Shown piece by piece: positions 11,433 through 26,420 of a DNA stretch of 27,857 bases; position 1 is the stretch's first letter, and the number at the start of each line of letters is the position of its first letter. The notes beneath the pieces were generated by a model. It was not told the origin of the DNA. It did no database searches and saw nothing but the letters and a program-made list of their open reading frames with translations. The position numbers and the translations under genes were made by a program. The stretch spans positions 1 to 27,857 of the IMG/VR virus record IMGVR_UViG_3300025892_000118; one strand, written 5' to 3'. This DNA comes from a virus.

Positions 11433-11902
11433 TTAGAAACCTTTGATAACATAGAACGCATTTCCATTTCTGTTTTGAAAGGTCCTTTGTAATCATATCG
11501 TTGAAGTGTAATTAGTTTAGGACAAAATGACTTAACCCATCCTTTATCAAACCTAATTGTATAGTAACCAGCACAATACAAGCTCTTACTGTCTTTACTC
11601 TTAGTAAACAACGGAAGTTTTTTCTTAATATCGAACATGCTATTATGGGGTTTAGTGCTAGTTGAGTAACCATGTACTTCGTTAGGTTGAGAGTTATCAG
11701 CTTCTCTCTTAATTTTCAATACAAAAAAGTCATTACCAAACTGTTGTAGTACGCTTTTTTTATTTGGAAAAAACTGTACACCATTTTCATTACTCATTAC
11801 AAAACGTGTTTCGTCTTTTCTAAGTGTGGCAAATTTCTCACCGTCTTGTTCAACGATCCAAAACTTGTTTTCTATAATTGGTTTAGCAATTAATGTTGTC
11901 AT
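11429..11902 (-). CDS. Conserved phage protein next to RNase H, unknown (157 aa)
   Basis: The protein begins with a beta-rich half (FWIVEQDGEKFATLRKDE, TRFVMSNENGVQFF) and has a basic mid-section containing HGYSTSTKPHNSMFD, followed by lysine-rich and aromatic stretches (YCAGYYTIRFDKGWVKSF). Two Cys are present without a metal motif. It overlaps the exonuclease gene by four bases, so its translation is coupled to that gene; a helper role in primer removal or replication is possible but only inferred from position. Confidence 0.65.
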   Translation of the reverse strand: MTTLIAKPIIENKFWIVEQDGEKFATLRKDETRFVMSNENGVQFFPNKKSVLQQFGNDFFVLKIKREADNSQPNEVHGYSTSTKPHNSMFDIKKKLPLFTKSKDSKSLYCAGYYTIRFDKGWVKSFCPKLITLQRYDYKGPFKTEMEMRSMLSKVSK

Positions 11903-12888
11903 TGTGGATACCTCGCATTTAATGGTTCAGCATAACTCTGTGCCTGATCAATAATTTTCTGTAGATCAAACAAGTTACAAAACTTCATAAGTCTAATACC
12001 TACTTGACTAATGTTTTTATTTTCTTCAATATTTTCAGCAATAGTGTTTGCTATAATTTCTTTAATATCATCAGGTTGACGTGTAAGATCAATAAGAACT
12101 TGATTACGTTCATAATCTTCAAGTACACGATGTTCTTCACCGTTATGATCAGTCCAACGCTGTAGCATTAGATTGTTCCAGTTAAAGCCTTTGCTATCAC
12201 GATCTTCAAATGCTTCTGTTAGTCCTACTTTGTTTCTCGATCCCTTCGTTCTAACTCCCGGATAAGCTGAGAAAACGTTGTCACTTGTGTCTCCACGCAT
12301 ACATTTTTGGAAGAGGAGCCACTCTGGGATTGGAGCGGATTTGTCTTCTCCTGTTTTTTTGTCTTTAACTCTTTGTCCTTTGGCATTAAAATATCCTTCA
12401 TGGGTTATAGTTGTTTCGCTAATACCGTTATACTGGCTAACATTCGGAGCGATAAGTTGCTCAAAGTCACTGTCTGTACTAATGATAACATGATCATCAT
12501 TAGGATGACTCTGAGTCCATCCAGCAATTAGATCGTCTGCTTCTAATTGCGAATTCTGTAATACACTACAATTTGTTTTTTCGTTAATAAAGTCTTTGAA
12601 TGTATCAAATGCTTCCCAAAACAATTTATCTTCTTCTTGTTCTTTCTCAGTTAATGCGGCACGAGCATCACTACGATTGCGCTTATACGGCTCATAGTAA
12701 TCTTTACGCCAACTACGACCTTCTAGACAGAACACAACATGATCACCGTCAAAGTCCTTCCATGCCTTTCGAATACTATTCAGTGTGATATGGAATGCCA
12801 TGCCAATTTTAATATCGGCATCACCTCTAACTACGTGTCTAGCACGAAAAAATGTGTTTGCTGTGTCTACTAGAATATATTTACTCAT
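11899..12888 (-). CDS. rnh: 5'-3' exonuclease / RNase H of the FEN family
   Basis: This is a T4 RNase H/FEN-1 type nuclease, which removes RNA primers during lagging-strand synthesis. Metal-binding acidic residues are visible at D8 (ILVDTANTFFRAR), E116-D118-D119 (QLEADDL), D139 and D141 (ISTDSDF) and D200/D203 (RGDTSDNV), the last leading into a helix-hairpin-helix-like region. At 329 residues it is close to the T4 protein's length (about 305). Basic residues around 55-73 (SWRKDYYEPYKRNRS) fit the arch and DNA-binding region. It overlaps both neighbours by four bases and belongs to the unit led by queE. Confidence 0.88.
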   Translation of the reverse strand: MSKYILVDTANTFFRARHVVRGDADIKIGMAFHITLNSIRKAWKDFDGDHVVFCLEGRSWRKDYYEPYKRNRSDARAALTEKEQEEDKLFWEAFDTFKDFINEKTNCSVLQNSQLEADDLIAGWTQSHPNDDHVIISTDSDFEQLIAPNVSQYNGISETTITHEGYFNAKGQRVKDKKTGEDKSAPIPEWLLFQKCMRGDTSDNVFSAYPGVRTKGSRNKVGLTEAFEDRDSKGFNWNNLMLQRWTDHNGEEHRVLEDYERNQVLIDLTRQPDDIKEIIANTIAENIEENKNISQVGIRLMKFCNLFDLQKIIDQAQSYAEPLNARYPQ

Positions 12889-13292: not shown

Positions 13293-14204
13293 TTATGTTC
13301 CGATAGCGTTACCGAACAGGTATACGTGTACCCTTGCGGCTACATTATATCCTCGTTCAAATGCCATCTTAGCAACTGATCCGGCTGTTGCTGTTTGTTC
13401 TTCTTCTCTAGCACCGACTGGCATAACCCATACCGGATAGTCTACACCCTGTGCTTTAAATTGTGAGATAACATCTTCCATCTCAACCCATTGATGTTTT
13501 TTACTGCCAACAACAAACTTTAGTTGTCCTTTGCTTGACAACTTTCTGTATTGTGCTACAACTTCAGGCTTAATTGCTTTCTTTGATTTCTCACCTGCTA
13601 CACTCCACAGTTTAGGACTTACACTAAAGAACAGTTCAATTTCGTTATCTGCTTCATAAGTCCAGTAATTAATAAATTCTTGTGTTAGTGCTTGTGTACC
13701 ATTAGTTTCAAATGTAACACTAGCAGGCATATTGCTCATACGCTTGAACTCACGCATAATACCAATGAATGCTTCTTGTCCGTGTCTCATTAACGGCTCG
13801 CCACCTGTAACACAAAAGTGTTGTCTTTGTTGTGTAACAGGATGTAGAAACAATCCTTCTGGATTGCTATCTGTTTTAAGTGTATCAATAATTTGCTGTG
13901 CTAGTTCAACAGCAGTCTTTTGACCCATCAAGTGTTTAAACTTCTTGCTCCAAGTGTAACTACTATCACAACCTTTATCCCATACAGGCAAGTCTTCAAC
14001 ACGTTTTACTGTGCTTGTGTCAAACCGTTCAAATGGCAAATCATAAGTGTCAGGATTGCGAGGATCAATCTGTCCAAATCCATTACACTGTAGATTACAT
14101 AGAAAGAAACGTATCCAAGCAGTAGGCACACCAGTATAGTGTCCTTCGCCTTGAATACTGTGAAAAATTTCACTATAATAATATTTCTTATCTGTTGCTA
14201 TCAT
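13293..14204 (-). CDS. queE: QueE-like 7-carboxy-7-deazaguanine synthase
   Basis: QueE is the radical SAM enzyme that turns 6-carboxytetrahydropterin into 7-carboxy-7-deazaguanine (CDG), the precursor of preQ0. The protein has EIFHSIQGEGHYTG (12-25), FFLCNLQC (33-40), a GCDSSYTW segment (78-85) and a GGE motif (VTGGEPLM, near 147), all typical of the family. Oddly, an insertion of about 36 residues splits the cluster motif into C36-X3-C40-X38-C79, where ordinary QueE has CX3CX2C. The ATG at 14204 lies seven bases after a consensus -10 box with no good ribosome-binding site, so the mRNA may be leaderless. It heads the unit that carries the exonuclease. Confidence 0.85.
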   Translation of the reverse strand: MIATDKKYYYSEIFHSIQGEGHYTGVPTAWIRFFLCNLQCNGFGQIDPRNPDTYDLPFERFDTSTVKRVEDLPVWDKGCDSSYTWSKKFKHLMGQKTAVELAQQIIDTLKTDSNPEGLFLHPVTQQRQHFCVTGGEPLMRHGQEAFIGIMREFKRMSNMPASVTFETNGTQALTQEFINYWTYEADNEIELFFSVSPKLWSVAGEKSKKAIKPEVVAQYRKLSSKGQLKFVVGSKKHQWVEMEDVISQFKAQGVDYPVWVMPVGAREEEQTATAGSVAKMAFERGYNVAARVHVYLFGNAIGT

Positions 14205-18057: not shown

Positions 18058-18242
18058 TACACTACCTCCATCAAAGGCTCACTAGTTGTATAGTCATGAT
18101 AGTCGCCATTGGCATTATATTTTCTAACAACAGTTCTTTTAATTAGAACTTTGTCTTCTAATACGTATGAAGTTAACTCTTGTTTAAGCACGTTGTCGGT
18201 TGGTGCGTCAAGGGCTGTTCTTAAAGGTCCTTCTTTAATCAT
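18057..18242 (-). CDS. Small conserved protein, unknown (61 aa)
   Basis: The sequence LKQELTSYVLEDKVLIKRTV followed by RKYNANGDYHDYTTSEPL suggests a beta-hairpin-rich small protein, familiar from cyanophage genomes without a function. Its ATG overlaps the folE stop (ATGA), so it is translated together with folE. No membrane segment or Cys is present. Confidence 0.6.
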   Translation of the reverse strand: MIKEGPLRTALDAPTDNVLKQELTSYVLEDKVLIKRTVVRKYNANGDYHDYTTSEPLMEVV

Positions 18243-18925
18243 CTTGGGGCAAACTCCTGTTGTAATTTAATATTGTCCATAAACTCTTTTTTAGTACCTG
18301 GGTCATCTTTAAAACTTCCTCTTAGTACTGTAGTTTGTGTAAGACTACTATGTGCCATGATGCCTCTATTCTCACAACAGCCATGTGTTGCTTGGATATA
18401 AACACCTAAGTTTTTAGCGTTAGTTGCTATTTCAATCTCTCGAGCAATGTCATTACACAATTCTTCTTGTAGTGTTCCACGTCTAGCACACCATTGAGCA
18501 ATGCGTGTATACTTACTAAGTCCAATTACTTTACCGTTTGGAATAATACCAATGTAAGCTACACCAGCTACTGGCTGATGATGATGTGAACACACACTCC
18601 TAAGCTCTGAACGTACTACAAGCATACCTGTGTACGCATCTTCTCCTTCATTTGGAAATGCTGTTGCTTTAGGAATAGGATCATAACGTCCTGTCATTAA
18701 TTCATTAAAGTACATTTTAGCAAGACGTCTTGCTGTACCTTCTGAATTAGGATCAGTATGTCGATCAATTACAAGTGAATCAAGAACAGTTTCAAATGCT
18801 AGTGTAGCATCATCAATCAGTGCTTCTTTGTCACCCGCTTGTAATACTTCTGAAATGTTGTCGCCGGCCCAGTATCTAATACCAGCATCTTTTAATTTTT
18901 CTTTAATTTGATCTGACTTCTTCAA
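18239..18925 (-). CDS. folE: GTP cyclohydrolase I (FolE)
   Basis: FolE converts GTP to 7,8-dihydroneopterin triphosphate, the first step of both folate and 7-deazaguanine synthesis. The zinc site is visible as C112-S-H-H115 (CSHHHQPVAG) and C183 (HGCCENRG); GLSKYTRIAQW (135-145) and LQEELCNDIARE (152-163) are the other conserved parts. The start is a TTG at 18925 with GGAG eight bases upstream; no in-frame ATG is better placed. It lies downstream of the queD-like and glycosyltransferase genes, which supports a deazaguanine role rather than folate alone. Confidence 0.92.
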   Translation of the reverse strand: MKKSDQIKEKLKDAGIRYWAGDNISEVLQAGDKEALIDDATLAFETVLDSLVIDRHTDPNSEGTARRLAKMYFNELMTGRYDPIPKATAFPNEGEDAYTGMLVVRSELRSVCSHHHQPVAGVAYIGIIPNGKVIGLSKYTRIAQWCARRGTLQEELCNDIAREIEIATNAKNLGVYIQATHGCCENRGIMAHSSLTQTTVLRGSFKDDPGTKKEFMDNIKLQQEFAPR

Positions 18926-21274: not shown

Positions 21275-21434
21275 GTTCTTCCTCTAGCTCTACAATTTGC
21301 TGTTTAATTTGTAATTTTTCTTTCTTTAATTCTGTTAATTTAATATAGTCTGTACTTAAATAAGGATTAGAAAGTCTGTCAATTTTTGTATCTAGCTCTA
21401 AGTGCTTTTCTTTAAGTGATTCTAATCTAGACAT
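21258..21434 (-). CDS. DUF465/YdcH-like small coiled-coil protein (58 aa)
   Basis: A short frame fills the gap between dpdA and the next gene. It reads MSRLESLKEKHLELDTKIDR, then LSNPYLSTDYIKLTELKKEK and LQIKQQIVELEEEHAKTV. Two antiparallel-type helices separated by a Pro-Tyr turn match the DUF465 (YdcH) pattern. The ATG at 21434 overlaps the dpdA stop (TAATG) by one base, so it is coupled to dpdA, and the end overlaps the next gene by 17 bp. The function of the family is unknown. Confidence 0.75.
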   Translation of the reverse strand: MSRLESLKEKHLELDTKIDRLSNPYLSTDYIKLTELKKEKLQIKQQIVELEEEHAKTV

Positions 21435-22948
21435 TATGCCTCCTGTTCGTGATATAATTCCTCTAGCTCAGCCAATGCTTCATCATTTGGATCGTTAAAG
21501 TCTTCAATACCACCAGTTTTTTGTTCTTCTTCGAACAAGTTATTAAATGTATTATTCGCTACACCACCTTTCAAACGCATACCCATCATATTATTGAGCA
21601 TAGGTTTTGCTTGTTCAATCATTTCAAATGGAGTTTCACTAGCAAATAATTCTTCTACAAAGCGATCGAAGTACAATACATTACGAGGTACCCAATCACT
21701 AAATTCATCACTCATATCTGAGTCTTTAATTTTACGCCATGCTTTCCAGTCTGGCTTAAATCGTGCTGTTTCAATATCAGATAAGTTGTTAGCACGTTGT
21801 ACAGCAACAATATGACAGTATGTATTATGTGCCATCATTAGTGCGTAACTAAAACTATCCCAACTAGTCTTTCCAACCTTACCTATTTTGTTTTGCATAT
21901 CACCTTTATACCAGCAAACATCGCCTTGTGTAATTCTACGACCAATTTCACTTTCAAAAGGAAAAGGAATATCAAAGCGTTGACTAATATCTTTGTTGTC
22001 TGGTGCTTTGTCCATAATAACACTCCAACGCTTATTTGTGTGTTGTGCGTTAGTGTATACAAGTCCGTGTGCTGTTGCGATAAAAGGACTAGCACAGTCA
22101 AAACTTACAGTAAAGTTTTCGTTAACTGTCTTACGTACTTGACGTTGAATGCTTGTTAAGTAACAACTCCAGTCCAGTTGTGCTGTACCCAAGAAGTGCA
22201 TCCAATCTCGATCCTCTAACAGTTGTTCATCACGTAGTGTAATAATTCGCTTAAGAGCAATTTCCATATCACACATGTTTTTACCACCCATTGCCCAACC
22301 TTCAGTTGGAAGATGTTTAACTGCTTGATACCACGCATCAGCAGTTTCCCAATCACTACCTTGTAACACATTTAAAAACTTAGTATTACCTAAACGGTTA
22401 TCAATAAAAAATTTGTTATTGTGTAGTGTTTTATCTAAGCAGTCTTGAAAACTCTTAAGTCCTGTTTTAGGTGAATGAATATGATCACTTGCCCAGGTCG
22501 GAACATCAAGTAACATACTCCAATCAGCTGTAAGTTCTAACCAATTTAAAATGTTTCTACGTGTTTTATCAGCCGCGGCACCTTCAAAATTTAACCAGTC
22601 AAATTTAAGTACACCTTTACCAATCTGATAACCGCCTGAGTCTCCTACGATTACTGTATTATCTCTATCACGTTCTTGTAACATACTATCTTGTTTAATT
22701 GTTTTTTCAAGATCAAGTTGAGCGTGACCCGCAGAATATAAACCATACTTGTATGAAAAATACCCTTTGTCTGCGTTTAGGAAGTTCATACCCTCAATGC
22801 CTCGATCAAATCCTTGCGGAACACGATCTTTAGGAACAAACTCTCCATATCTCTGTTTAGAAATATATGTTGAATAAAAAGTACTAATCGCAGGCAAATA
22901 CACTGCGTAGTCTTTTTGTAAAGGCGATAAATTAACCGGTGCTGTCAT
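21434..22948 (-). CDS. dpdA: DpdA-family DNA (tRNA-guanine-like) transglycosylase
   Basis: DpdA proteins are relatives of tRNA-guanine transglycosylase that replace guanine in DNA with 7-deazaguanine bases. VGDSGGYQIGKG (near 101-112) holds the first catalytic Asp; VLQGSDW and AMGGKN the base-binding region; SFDCASPF (near 289-296) the second catalytic Asp; and ALMMAHNTYCH the Zn-site-type HN. At 504 residues it is longer than bacterial TGT. Near the end, residues 466-475 (NTFNNLFEEE) copy the clamp-binding tail of this phage's gp43. It follows gene 45 by one base, in the same unit, with only a weak AGG ribosome-binding site. Confidence 0.82.
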   Translation of the reverse strand: MTAPVNLSPLQKDYAVYLPAISTFYSTYISKQRYGEFVPKDRVPQGFDRGIEGMNFLNADKGYFSYKYGLYSAGHAQLDLEKTIKQDSMLQERDRDNTVIVGDSGGYQIGKGVLKFDWLNFEGAAADKTRRNILNWLELTADWSMLLDVPTWASDHIHSPKTGLKSFQDCLDKTLHNNKFFIDNRLGNTKFLNVLQGSDWETADAWYQAVKHLPTEGWAMGGKNMCDMEIALKRIITLRDEQLLEDRDWMHFLGTAQLDWSCYLTSIQRQVRKTVNENFTVSFDCASPFIATAHGLVYTNAQHTNKRWSVIMDKAPDNKDISQRFDIPFPFESEIGRRITQGDVCWYKGDMQNKIGKVGKTSWDSFSYALMMAHNTYCHIVAVQRANNLSDIETARFKPDWKAWRKIKDSDMSDEFSDWVPRNVLYFDRFVEELFASETPFEMIEQAKPMLNNMMGMRLKGGVANNTFNNLFEEEQKTGGIEDFNDPNDEALAELEELYHEQEA

Positions 22949-22949
22949 A

Positions 22950-23687
22950 TTAGGCTGCCTGTGCTGGAATAATGTATTTGTAATTTGCTATACCACTATC
23001 AAGTTCGATCTGGATAGCACCATCGTTACTAAGGCTCATCTTAGTACTGTTTACATCAGCAATTTTAAGAATTGCTAAGATAGGAGCAACTGGCCAAGTC
23101 CAACCTCTATCAAGTGTTCCTTCTACATCAGTAGCAAAGATAAACTCGCCTGCGTGTGAGCTTGCGTCACCAAAAATAAATTTAAGGTTATTCTGATCTG
23201 TTTTAGCAAGGAATGTTGGATGCTCTGGATTAGCACCTGCTTGGAAGTTCATACGCTGAACACCAGCAAGTGTAGGAACAATACTCACATGCCAATTAGC
23301 ACCACGGAATTTAACAGTTTTCATCTTTTCGTTAATAATTTCCATGTTCATAAAACGGTAGTCGTTTTTAAAGTCACCGTCTTTGTTCTCAAAATGAATA
23401 CCAACTGGAATAGTTTCTCCGTTTCGGCTTGCTGTTGTAATATTGATCTTAGCGTCTTCTTTATATTCACTACCGTCTAACAGATACTTTAGTTTCTGTA
23501 GTTGCGGCATACCAAATACACCAATCATATCTGGATAAGGATTATTAGTTGTTGCTTCCATAATCACAGAGCGGTCATCTGCCATCGAAAAAATAGCAGT
23601 TTCTTTTTCATCGCCTGTAACCTTAACTGTGGTCAGGAAGCCTAGGTTCTGTGTATGGCTTACAATGTCTTGTAAAATGTCTTTCAT
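22950..23687 (-). CDS. 45: T4-type sliding clamp (gp45)
   Basis: The clamp tethers the polymerase to DNA and, in T4, activates late transcription. The protein has the repeated PCNA-like layout: MIGVFGMPQLQKLKYLLDG in the first half, and WPVAPILAILKIADVNSTKM followed by AIQIELDSGIANYKYIIPA at the end, which matches the family's C-terminal strand. At 245 residues it is close to T4 gp45 (228). A strong ribosome-binding site (GGAGAAAC) precedes the ATG. It has its own consensus promoter just downstream of gene 43 and shares a unit with dpdA. The assignment is by pattern, not by alignment. Confidence 0.75.
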   Translation of the reverse strand: MKDILQDIVSHTQNLGFLTTVKVTGDEKETAIFSMADDRSVIMEATTNNPYPDMIGVFGMPQLQKLKYLLDGSEYKEDAKINITTASRNGETIPVGIHFENKDGDFKNDYRFMNMEIINEKMKTVKFRGANWHVSIVPTLAGVQRMNFQAGANPEHPTFLAKTDQNNLKFIFGDASSHAGEFIFATDVEGTLDRGWTWPVAPILAILKIADVNSTKMSLSNDGAIQIELDSGIANYKYIIPAQAA

Positions 23688-23750: not shown

Positions 23751-26420
23751 TTATTCAAAATCAAACAAACTGTTAAAGGTGTTGTCTTGTCTTGTAGATT
23801 TAATATCCCAATCCAAAACACCAATTAAATTACCCAGCTTCTCATCAATAACAGTAGTTTCCATAGTTGCGTCATCAAACGGAAGCTCTTTAAACCATTC
23901 AGGTAGTCGTAGTTCGTCCACAGGATACGCAACACTAGTGAATCCCATTGGATTGTCTTTTACCTTACAAACAATAACTTTCGCACCGTCTGTAATAGTT
24001 TGACTGTACTTGTCATCATTCATGCGTTTAAGCGTATTCCAATTGATACTTGCTCTTACATGACCTGGCATATTTGCCTTTCCAAGTTTCTTTTCTTTGG
24101 CTTGATATTCTGTGATCTTATTAGCACGTTTTGGAGAGCCTTTCTCCCAACCTGATCGTCCGTGAAAATCTGTTCTAAATTCTGAAATGTATGCTAGTAC
24201 ATCTTCTTTAGGTTTTCCATCCAGCACTTTTTCTAACACTTCTTTTAAGAAATCTTGGATAACAACTGGAGTATCAGAACGTTTAAGATCTAGTCCCATT
24301 GCTTTAATTTTACCTGGCTTGCCTTCTGTATCAACACGAAAGCCTTCCATGTCATAGTATAACACAGCATATCGTTTCTTTGTAATAAACAATCCACTTG
24401 AAGCAACTACTTCTCTACCAGCCTTAATAACATCGCCTCTTGTTTTTGGACAGTGGAAACTATCTAGCATCATTTTAGGAAAACTAGCCGAAGCGTCATC
24501 AGCAATCTGATCATACAGTTGTACAACAGAATCTTTAGTCCAAGGTATACTACCGTTATCAATATCTTCTTTTAGTATATTGTAAGCACTAAAGTAAGAT
24601 GAATCAGTATCACCGTAAATAATTGACTTTCCTCTGTAGTCATAATCGCCTGTAATAATTTCATTAATCTTTGCGGACATATGTTTAACAATAGTACGTC
24701 CTGTAAGTGTAGTTGACTGTCCAATACGGTTATCAAAGAATCTACAACCTGGATTAAGAATAGCACCATACAAACTGTTGAGCAAAATCTTCTTAACCAA
24801 CTGTCGCTTGTCCCAGTATTCAATTTGAATATCGTTCTCAGCATCTTTTGCTTCTTTAAGTTTAGCTTGCATCTCTTTACGTTCAGCATACCAACGCTTT
24901 AACAGTCCAGGAATAATACCTTCTTTCTCGTATGTAAAGATTGTACCGTTAGCACTTAACATCCATGGTTGATTACTTTCAAAGATCAAGTCATGTATTT
25001 GTGCGCCAGTGAGTGTATCTTCGTTACCATCTTCCCAATCGATAATGATTTCTTTTGATACGTTCTTTTCCATGACTAGTTCATACTCTAAACTTCCGAA
25101 CTGTCCTTCCCATGCCGCGGCAAAGGACTTTTTGTTACGTACCATTTGTTCATCGATATAGTTTTTTGTATAATCCTGTCGAAGCTGACCTACAATAGTT
25201 TCTGGACCCATATTCAAAGCACGAATAGCACTTGGGTATAGTGAATTGATATCAACAGAGCCAATCCACGAATGAATGCCTTTTTTAGGATAAGCAACAT
25301 ACGCACCTGCCGCAGGCTCACTGCCAGGTTCTCGTCTAATCCTATTAGGAACAATAAAGCCACGTTTGTGTGCTTCGTTGATAATACCTTGTTCTGTAAC
25401 AGCAACAGCACCCATTGTTGTTTGTAGAAGCACGGTGTTTTCATGAGCAACTACATTAGCAAGGTCTATAAACTTTAGTTTCTTGTCTAGTTTATCAAGC
25501 AATGCTGTGTCTTGTCTATTGTATTCAATGAATGTTCTAAAGTCATTGTTGTAAAGTTGATCTAGTGTACCTTCATACACAGTTTTGTTTTCACCAATTT
25601 CTTGTTCACCAATAGCATCAAGTCTATATGTATGTCGTTCTTCATATGTGTACTTACGATACAGTTCCAAACTATCTAAGTGTACACGACCTATAAGATC
25701 ATATGTGACACTTTTACGTCCAAACTTTTCATACTCACGTTTCTTAGGAAGTTGATCCCAAAGGCAAAAGCGTCTTGTATCATCTTTAGATAATGTTTTA
25801 ATTACACGGTTAACTGTGTAGGGAATATCAAAGCCTTCACTGTTCCAACCTGTAAGTATGTCTGCGTCTTGAATTAAGTCTAAAAAAGCATCAAGTAATT
25901 CTGCTTCTGAATCAAACAAGTACGTATCTGGAATTCCTTTGATAGCTTCTTTTGCTTCTTCCATGTTCATAGTCTTAGGAGGAATAGCAAAACATATTAG
26001 TGTATCCAGCCATTGTAAGTGAACAGCGATAGAAGTAATTGGCATGAACGCATCTTCTGGAGAAGCATATCCACGCTCTGGATCGAAGTCAACTTCGATA
26101 TCAAAAAATGCTACATTAAGTTTGGGCGGATCTTGATTAAGATAATTATCTTCTAGACATCTAAAAATAGGATTGACATCGCTTTCGAATAATTTCTTGT
26201 TGCTATAGATCTTTTGTTCTTTGTGAAAGTCTTTAACGTTTTTACAAGTAACACGTTGTAATTGATCACCGTATATACTTTGATACTTTCCTCTAGGGTC
26301 AGCATAATAAAAAACATATCTTGCGGGGTATTCTTTAAATTGGCGTTTGCCGTTTGTGTCTCGTTCTACAATATTAATAATATCGGCATCACGATTATAG
26401 AACGCATCTACATAACTCAT
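23751..26420 (-). CDS. 43: Family B DNA polymerase (T4 gp43-like)
   Basis: This is the replicative polymerase with a 3'-5' exonuclease. Exo motifs are D107-I-E109 (FFDIEVD), NSEGFDIPY and YNRQDTALL; polymerase motifs are DINSLYPSAI (A), KILLNSLYGA (B) and YGDTDSSYF (C). At 889 residues it is close to T4 gp43 (898). The last ten residues, NTFNSLFDFE, resemble the clamp-binding C-terminal tail of T4/RB69 polymerases. Translation starts at 26420 with AGGAGA six bases upstream, and a small hairpin sits directly against that site. All catalytic motifs are intact. Confidence 0.97.
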   Translation of the reverse strand: MSYVDAFYNRDADIINIVERDTNGKRQFKEYPARYVFYYADPRGKYQSIYGDQLQRVTCKNVKDFHKEQKIYSNKKLFESDVNPIFRCLEDNYLNQDPPKLNVAFFDIEVDFDPERGYASPEDAFMPITSIAVHLQWLDTLICFAIPPKTMNMEEAKEAIKGIPDTYLFDSEAELLDAFLDLIQDADILTGWNSEGFDIPYTVNRVIKTLSKDDTRRFCLWDQLPKKREYEKFGRKSVTYDLIGRVHLDSLELYRKYTYEERHTYRLDAIGEQEIGENKTVYEGTLDQLYNNDFRTFIEYNRQDTALLDKLDKKLKFIDLANVVAHENTVLLQTTMGAVAVTEQGIINEAHKRGFIVPNRIRREPGSEPAAGAYVAYPKKGIHSWIGSVDINSLYPSAIRALNMGPETIVGQLRQDYTKNYIDEQMVRNKKSFAAAWEGQFGSLEYELVMEKNVSKEIIIDWEDGNEDTLTGAQIHDLIFESNQPWMLSANGTIFTYEKEGIIPGLLKRWYAERKEMQAKLKEAKDAENDIQIEYWDKRQLVKKILLNSLYGAILNPGCRFFDNRIGQSTTLTGRTIVKHMSAKINEIITGDYDYRGKSIIYGDTDSSYFSAYNILKEDIDNGSIPWTKDSVVQLYDQIADDASASFPKMMLDSFHCPKTRGDVIKAGREVVASSGLFITKKRYAVLYYDMEGFRVDTEGKPGKIKAMGLDLKRSDTPVVIQDFLKEVLEKVLDGKPKEDVLAYISEFRTDFHGRSGWEKGSPKRANKITEYQAKEKKLGKANMPGHVRASINWNTLKRMNDDKYSQTITDGAKVIVCKVKDNPMGFTSVAYPVDELRLPEWFKELPFDDATMETTVIDEKLGNLIGVLDWDIKSTRQDNTFNSLFDFE

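Follow-up and report, generated by a model that had tools for sequence, protein, structure and literature searches.

Background

To escape restriction, phages have to modify their DNA both quickly and completely, and how they do so is an open question, which the locus described here poses in a specific form: is an enzyme that exchanges bases in DNA, encoded beside the DNA polymerase and the sliding clamp, brought to its substrate by the clamp itself? The locus lies in a stretch of 27,857 nucleotides (positions 1 to 27,857 of IMG/VR virus record IMGVR_UViG_3300025892_000118), which we refer to as the window, and its core consists of the following features.

21434..22948, minus strand: dpdA, TGT-superfamily DNA base-exchange enzyme of 504 aa, assigned by AF2 fold matches
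21437..21577, minus strand: DpdA residues 458-504, predicted disordered tail, pLDDT < 50 throughout
21524..21553, minus strand: motif NTFNNLFEEE, DpdA residues 466-475, putative clamp-binding motif of PIP-like type (hydrophobic-x-x-L-F-acidic)
22097..22099, minus strand: Asp284 of FDC, invariant in 45 diverse homologues
22640..22642, minus strand: Asp103 of DSGGYQ, invariant in 45 diverse homologues
22950..23687, minus strand: sliding clamp of 245 aa with a PCNA-like fold (phrog_12062)
23751..26420, minus strand: gp43-like family B DNA polymerase of 889 aa (PF00136 2.1e-35, PF03104 2.5e-19)
23754..23783, minus strand: NTFNSLFDFE, the last ten polymerase residues, a tail of clamp-binding type with the spacing of T4 gp43 LDFLFG and gp55 LDFLYE

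The comparison of DpdA residues 466-475 with the polymerase end gives the 7/10 identities of the original prediction, and the single base between the clamp gene, which ends at 22950, and dpdA, which starts at 22948, was likewise as described. The motif had also been called C-terminal, but 29 residues come after it in the window DpdA, and it is therefore located inside the tail rather than at its end. Based on the comparisons presented here, we consider it probable that this PIP-like motif in the disordered tail tethers DpdA to the PCNA-like clamp of the phage via the polymerase-binding pocket, with guanine exchange at or behind the replication fork.

The enzyme and the clamp

The window DpdA has no family among the Pfam, PHROGs and NCBIfam profiles, and its sequence homology to DpdA2 of Vibrio phage nt-1 is not significant (HMM E 0.056, with no real alignment). 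Its AF2 model has a confident core with a mean pLDDT of 85 overall, and the fold matches TGT (E 9.1e-8), DpdA 7ui4 (7.1e-5) and nt-1 DpdA2 (6.0e-9); by this modelled fold, the protein is a member of the TGT/DpdA superfamily. Asp103 we take, by its motif, to be the equivalent of the catalytic aspartate in DSGGFQ of TGT, and Asp284 is presumably the nucleophile, by analogy with FDC of TGT. The sequence has no CxC, so the CxCxxC zinc motif of tRNA-type TGT is absent and the protein is not classed as a tRNA TGT. In the model the motif is not buried in a folded domain and sits in the low-confidence tail of residues 458-504. The motif is followed by another conserved element of the tail, predicted to be an acidic helix (DD..L..LE), at residues 488-503 (window 21440-21487).

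For the clamp, the corresponding half of a close homologue's model matches PCNA structures with E values from 4.5e-11 to 2e-9 (TMt 0.59-0.69), while the sequence has no recognisable homology to T4 gp45 (BLASTP E 0.46) and a phmmer search of the PDB found no clamp. The protein designated gp45 earlier is thus a clamp of PCNA fold, but its sequence does not identify it as gp45.

The polymerase-clamp-dpdA order is conserved among related loci, and the clamp gene lies less than 600 nt upstream of dpdA in 147/153 loci with enough sequence. The exceptions include Vibrio phage 2.275.O, with a distance of 839 nt, and Sinorhizobium phage Phosso, where the genes are unlinked and far apart (dpdA at ~323 kb, the clamp gene at ~149 kb); the Phosso DpdA ends with KIVEGLF and its polymerase with TTFNDLFTF, both directly at the stop codon. 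In about half of the related loci the gap between clamp and dpdA is ~300-450 nt (e.g. L035, L133; PA5oct gp169), and in some relatives, in contrast to the window, it holds an ORF of ~120 codons. The PA5oct DNA polymerase (L081 1605-6831) has an annotation that splits it in two, with a Hef-like homing endonuclease in between.

Conservation of the motif and co-change with the polymerase tail

The DpdA relatives comprised 539 in viral contigs, remoter ones obtained in addition via an alignment query, and those of the PA5oct-group, Vibrio and Sinorhizobium phages. Used singly, the DpdA of Vibrio 2.275.O or of PA5oct gave no matches in the viral contigs, whereas the alignment query did. The proposal had been made to depend on the presence of the motif in close DpdA homologues, and there it is found. 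Among 45 diverse DpdA sequences, Phe472 of the motif is invariant (44/44, plus one gap), F or Y occupies position 468 in 41/45, and position 471 is Leu in 33/45 and Phe in 5, while most neighbouring tail columns, unlike the motif, vary freely. As far as these sequences reach, the motif dates far back in the family, occurring across the deep DpdA tree and being internal in most members.

This distribution bears on the idea that the DpdA peptide was copied from the polymerase tail, as had been proposed. Copying or gene conversion from the 3' end of the polymerase gene would fit the high similarity in the window, where 20/30 nt are identical. However, the statement that the codons differ, although wrong for 3/7 shared residues, which use the same codon, is right for 4/7; there is no shared flanking sequence, no lineage was seen with near-identical nucleotide sequences of both ends, and the motif was already present across the deep tree. 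We regard such an origin as very improbable, and because the motif is ancient and the codons differ, the word 'copied' is unsupported; the likeness is explained by retention in parallel or by co-change via a shared partner. The recruitment to the clamp that was proposed along with it is, in contrast, well supported by comparison.

Further, the polymerase and DpdA tails of the same genome were compared. A polymerase with F at position 6 (FF) is paired with FF in DpdA in 10/10 pairs, and a polymerase with L is paired with F in DpdA in 1/95. Along a tree of the DpdA core, 4/4 polymerase changes examined were matched in DpdA, namely two between L and F at position 6 and two between F and Y at position 3, but independent events are few (2 + 2) and each sign test gives p 0.5. 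DpdA also changes while the polymerase does not (FF in L133, His, Met, and Ser at position 3), and the motif was lost in one lineage, L088/L095. The expectation that the motif would track the polymerase tail of its own genome hence agrees with all four changes on the tree but not with the variation of DpdA on its own. The motif appears to follow the polymerase tail when the latter changes, and we treat this as supportive only because so few events are too little for a sign test to become significant and because DpdA varies alone as well.

Resemblance beyond chance

Two low-complexity, Asn-rich tails could resemble each other by chance, and the pattern hydrophobic-x-x-[LFMI]-F does arise in 5.7% of unrelated tails (70/1,237 control tails from the same loci). 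The exonuclease at 11899-12888 can also be counted for this explanation, having an NLFDL that its relatives do not keep; as a further clamp client it was rejected on the same ground. Among 106 non-identical DpdA/polymerase pairs, however, 91 DpdA tails have the pattern, against a mean of 11.9 and a maximum of 20 after shuffling.

Genome-wide rankings also argue against chance. In G001, a relative of 269,730 bp, the last 60 residues of each of 305 genes were scored against the polymerase tail of that genome, and DpdA was the best non-polymerase match with a score of 30, followed by 21. The DpdA of Vibrio phage 2.275.O ends with NNNDLFGW and its polymerase with NNTDLFDW, both thus having -DLF[D/G]W at the stop codon; DpdA is the top match to the polymerase tail among 556 genes (37 vs 28 for the next), and with exact C-termini the scores are 37 and 9. 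In PA5oct, DpdA was not the top match in the whole-genome ranking, and its tail has the pattern (NSFNSLFD vs HFDSLF in the polymerase). When T4 was scanned in the same way as a positive control, gp55, whose binding to gp45 is proven, came out with a score of 26, below the 30-38 of DpdA. With conservation over hundreds of phages and the invariant Phe, these rankings and shuffles leave chance strongly disfavoured and, in our view, hardly credible: the resemblance between the two tails, so far as such comparisons can tell, is not chance. A separate observation from the structural gene region of PA5oct is a protein of 1006 aa (203622-206642; L210/L211) that ends with THAYVIFGW, to be compared with the polymerase end HFDSLFGW.

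The spacing of FNSLFD is that of T4 LDFLFG (gp43) and LDFLYE (gp55). Peptides that bind the bacterial clamp are of the QL[S/D]LF type, and their -LF core is common to them and the DpdA motif, which could therefore be taken to bind the host beta clamp instead of the phage clamp. Yet the motif lacks the usual Gln, its hydrophobic-x-x-L-F spacing matches PIP boxes and the tails of T4, it follows the polymerase tail of the phage, and a PCNA-fold clamp of the phage itself is encoded next door; binding to the host clamp is accordingly most unlikely.

Tethering to the clamp

We consider recruitment of DpdA to the phage clamp well supported, since a tail that is predicted to be disordered has kept the motif, since the motif is like the polymerase tail and changes along with it, and since dpdA is coupled to the polymerase and clamp genes. 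A motif of this kind also ends the phage polymerase, and the DpdA motif would dock on the PCNA-like clamp through the polymerase-binding pocket. The tethered enzyme could then replace guanine by a 7-deazaguanine in DNA at the fork or immediately behind it, so that the exchange would take place in newly replicated DNA.

Docking was also modelled with AF2 for the homologue L141 as a fused clamp-DpdA protein, with its stop codon read through solely to allow the modelling, and the tail remained undocked with pLDDT < 50. This result neither supports nor refutes docking because the model was a single chain built from a shallow alignment, without multimer mode or a positive control. The undocked tail could nevertheless be read in favour of a true conserved short linear motif with its main partner elsewhere, either another phage or host protein or, by folding back, DpdA itself, and the acidic helix near residues 488-503 points to further constraints on the tail. 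Against this, the motif is like the polymerase tail and changes along with it, down to the odd DLFGW/DLFDW ends of Vibrio 2.275.O, and in the AF2 model it makes no confident contact with the core of DpdA. We hold such a partner to be unlikely, albeit the most serious of the alternatives, and return to the clamp as the probable partner.

In regard to the base that would be inserted, the window encodes two enzymes of the 7-deazaguanine pathway.

13293..14204, minus strand: QueE-like radical SAM protein, 7-deazaguanine pathway (phrog_2076 1.1e-54)
18239..18925, minus strand: FolE, the GTP cyclohydrolase I that begins preQ0 synthesis (PF01227 1.7e-41 at 18269-18793)

FolE was found in 9/9 records and QueD in 7/9, with QueE in the window, and the Pfam search for QueC across the records (G001-G005, PA5oct and the window included) found it only in Vibrio 2.275.O. 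Since most of the genomes yielded no canonical QueC, what DpdA inserts may be a precursor of preQ0, e.g. 7-carboxy-7-deazaguanine (CDG), instead of preQ0 itself, or QueC of the host may be needed for it. We suggest, tentatively and with less confidence than for the tethering as such, that a whole clade of large phages could have a clamp-seated DpdA beside the polymerase that swaps guanine in new DNA, perhaps for such a precursor.

Comparison with known systems

Eukaryotic PIP-box enzymes, e.g. DNMT1 on PCNA, are DNA-modifying enzymes held by a short hydrophobic motif. The tether to a PCNA-fold clamp is the likeness to the proposed DpdA, whereas DNMT1 carries out methylation and not base exchange, and the canonical PIP-box Gln of the eukaryotic enzymes is missing from the DpdA motif.

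The closest precedent among phages, of which the original prediction made no mention, is the T4 alpha-glucosyltransferase, which binds gp45 (Sommer 2004, cited and confirmed in PMC13216743, 2026). The enzyme has been proposed to modify DNA together with replication, although the 2026 study finds that the T4 alpha/beta glucosylation ratio is not mainly due to this binding. It resembles the proposed DpdA in being a phage DNA-hypermodifying enzyme on a phage PCNA-type clamp, but differs in fold and chemistry, glucosylating hydroxymethylcytosine. The T4 enzyme (L216 36624-37826) has a candidate site AYEFLYQ, a match starting 27 and ending ~20 residues from its C-terminus, to be compared with LDFLFG and LDFLYE.

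The clamp-binding C-terminal tails of T4 gp43, gp55 and gp33 are similar and interchangeable (PMC2988020). With the DpdA tail they share a hydrophobic-x-x-L-F/Y core and, directly after it, G or an acidic residue; like it, they are short and flexible and resemble the polymerase tail of their own phage. The T4 motifs lie at or near the C-terminus, unlike that of the window DpdA, whereas the motif of Vibrio 2.275.O is terminal.

Phage DpdA of the 9g type and DpdA2 of Vibrio phage nt-1 are expected to insert 7-deazaguanine into DNA (PMC6884629). The window DpdA has in common with them the TGT-superfamily fold, the DSGG aspartate and the presence of at least some preQ0-pathway genes. The nt-1 DpdA2, in contrast, has no such tail motif, and was rejected as a carrier for that reason, nor does its gene lie beside the clamp gene.

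In the open-access literature we found no paper that links DpdA to a sliding clamp other than in passing, in line with the original prediction, which knew of no described clamp-tethered DpdA. Clamp-tethered modification enzymes are already known, while base exchange by a clamp-tethered DpdA appears to be undescribed.

Biological meaning

If true, a transglycosylase docked on the clamp would couple base exchange to replication, and the docking would explain why dpdA is locked beside the polymerase and clamp genes in these phages. It would also extend to purine exchange a principle that so far comes from the T4 alpha-glucosyltransferase and eukaryotic DNMT1, with a DpdA bearing a putative docking tag of polymerase type being common to a large group of giant phages.
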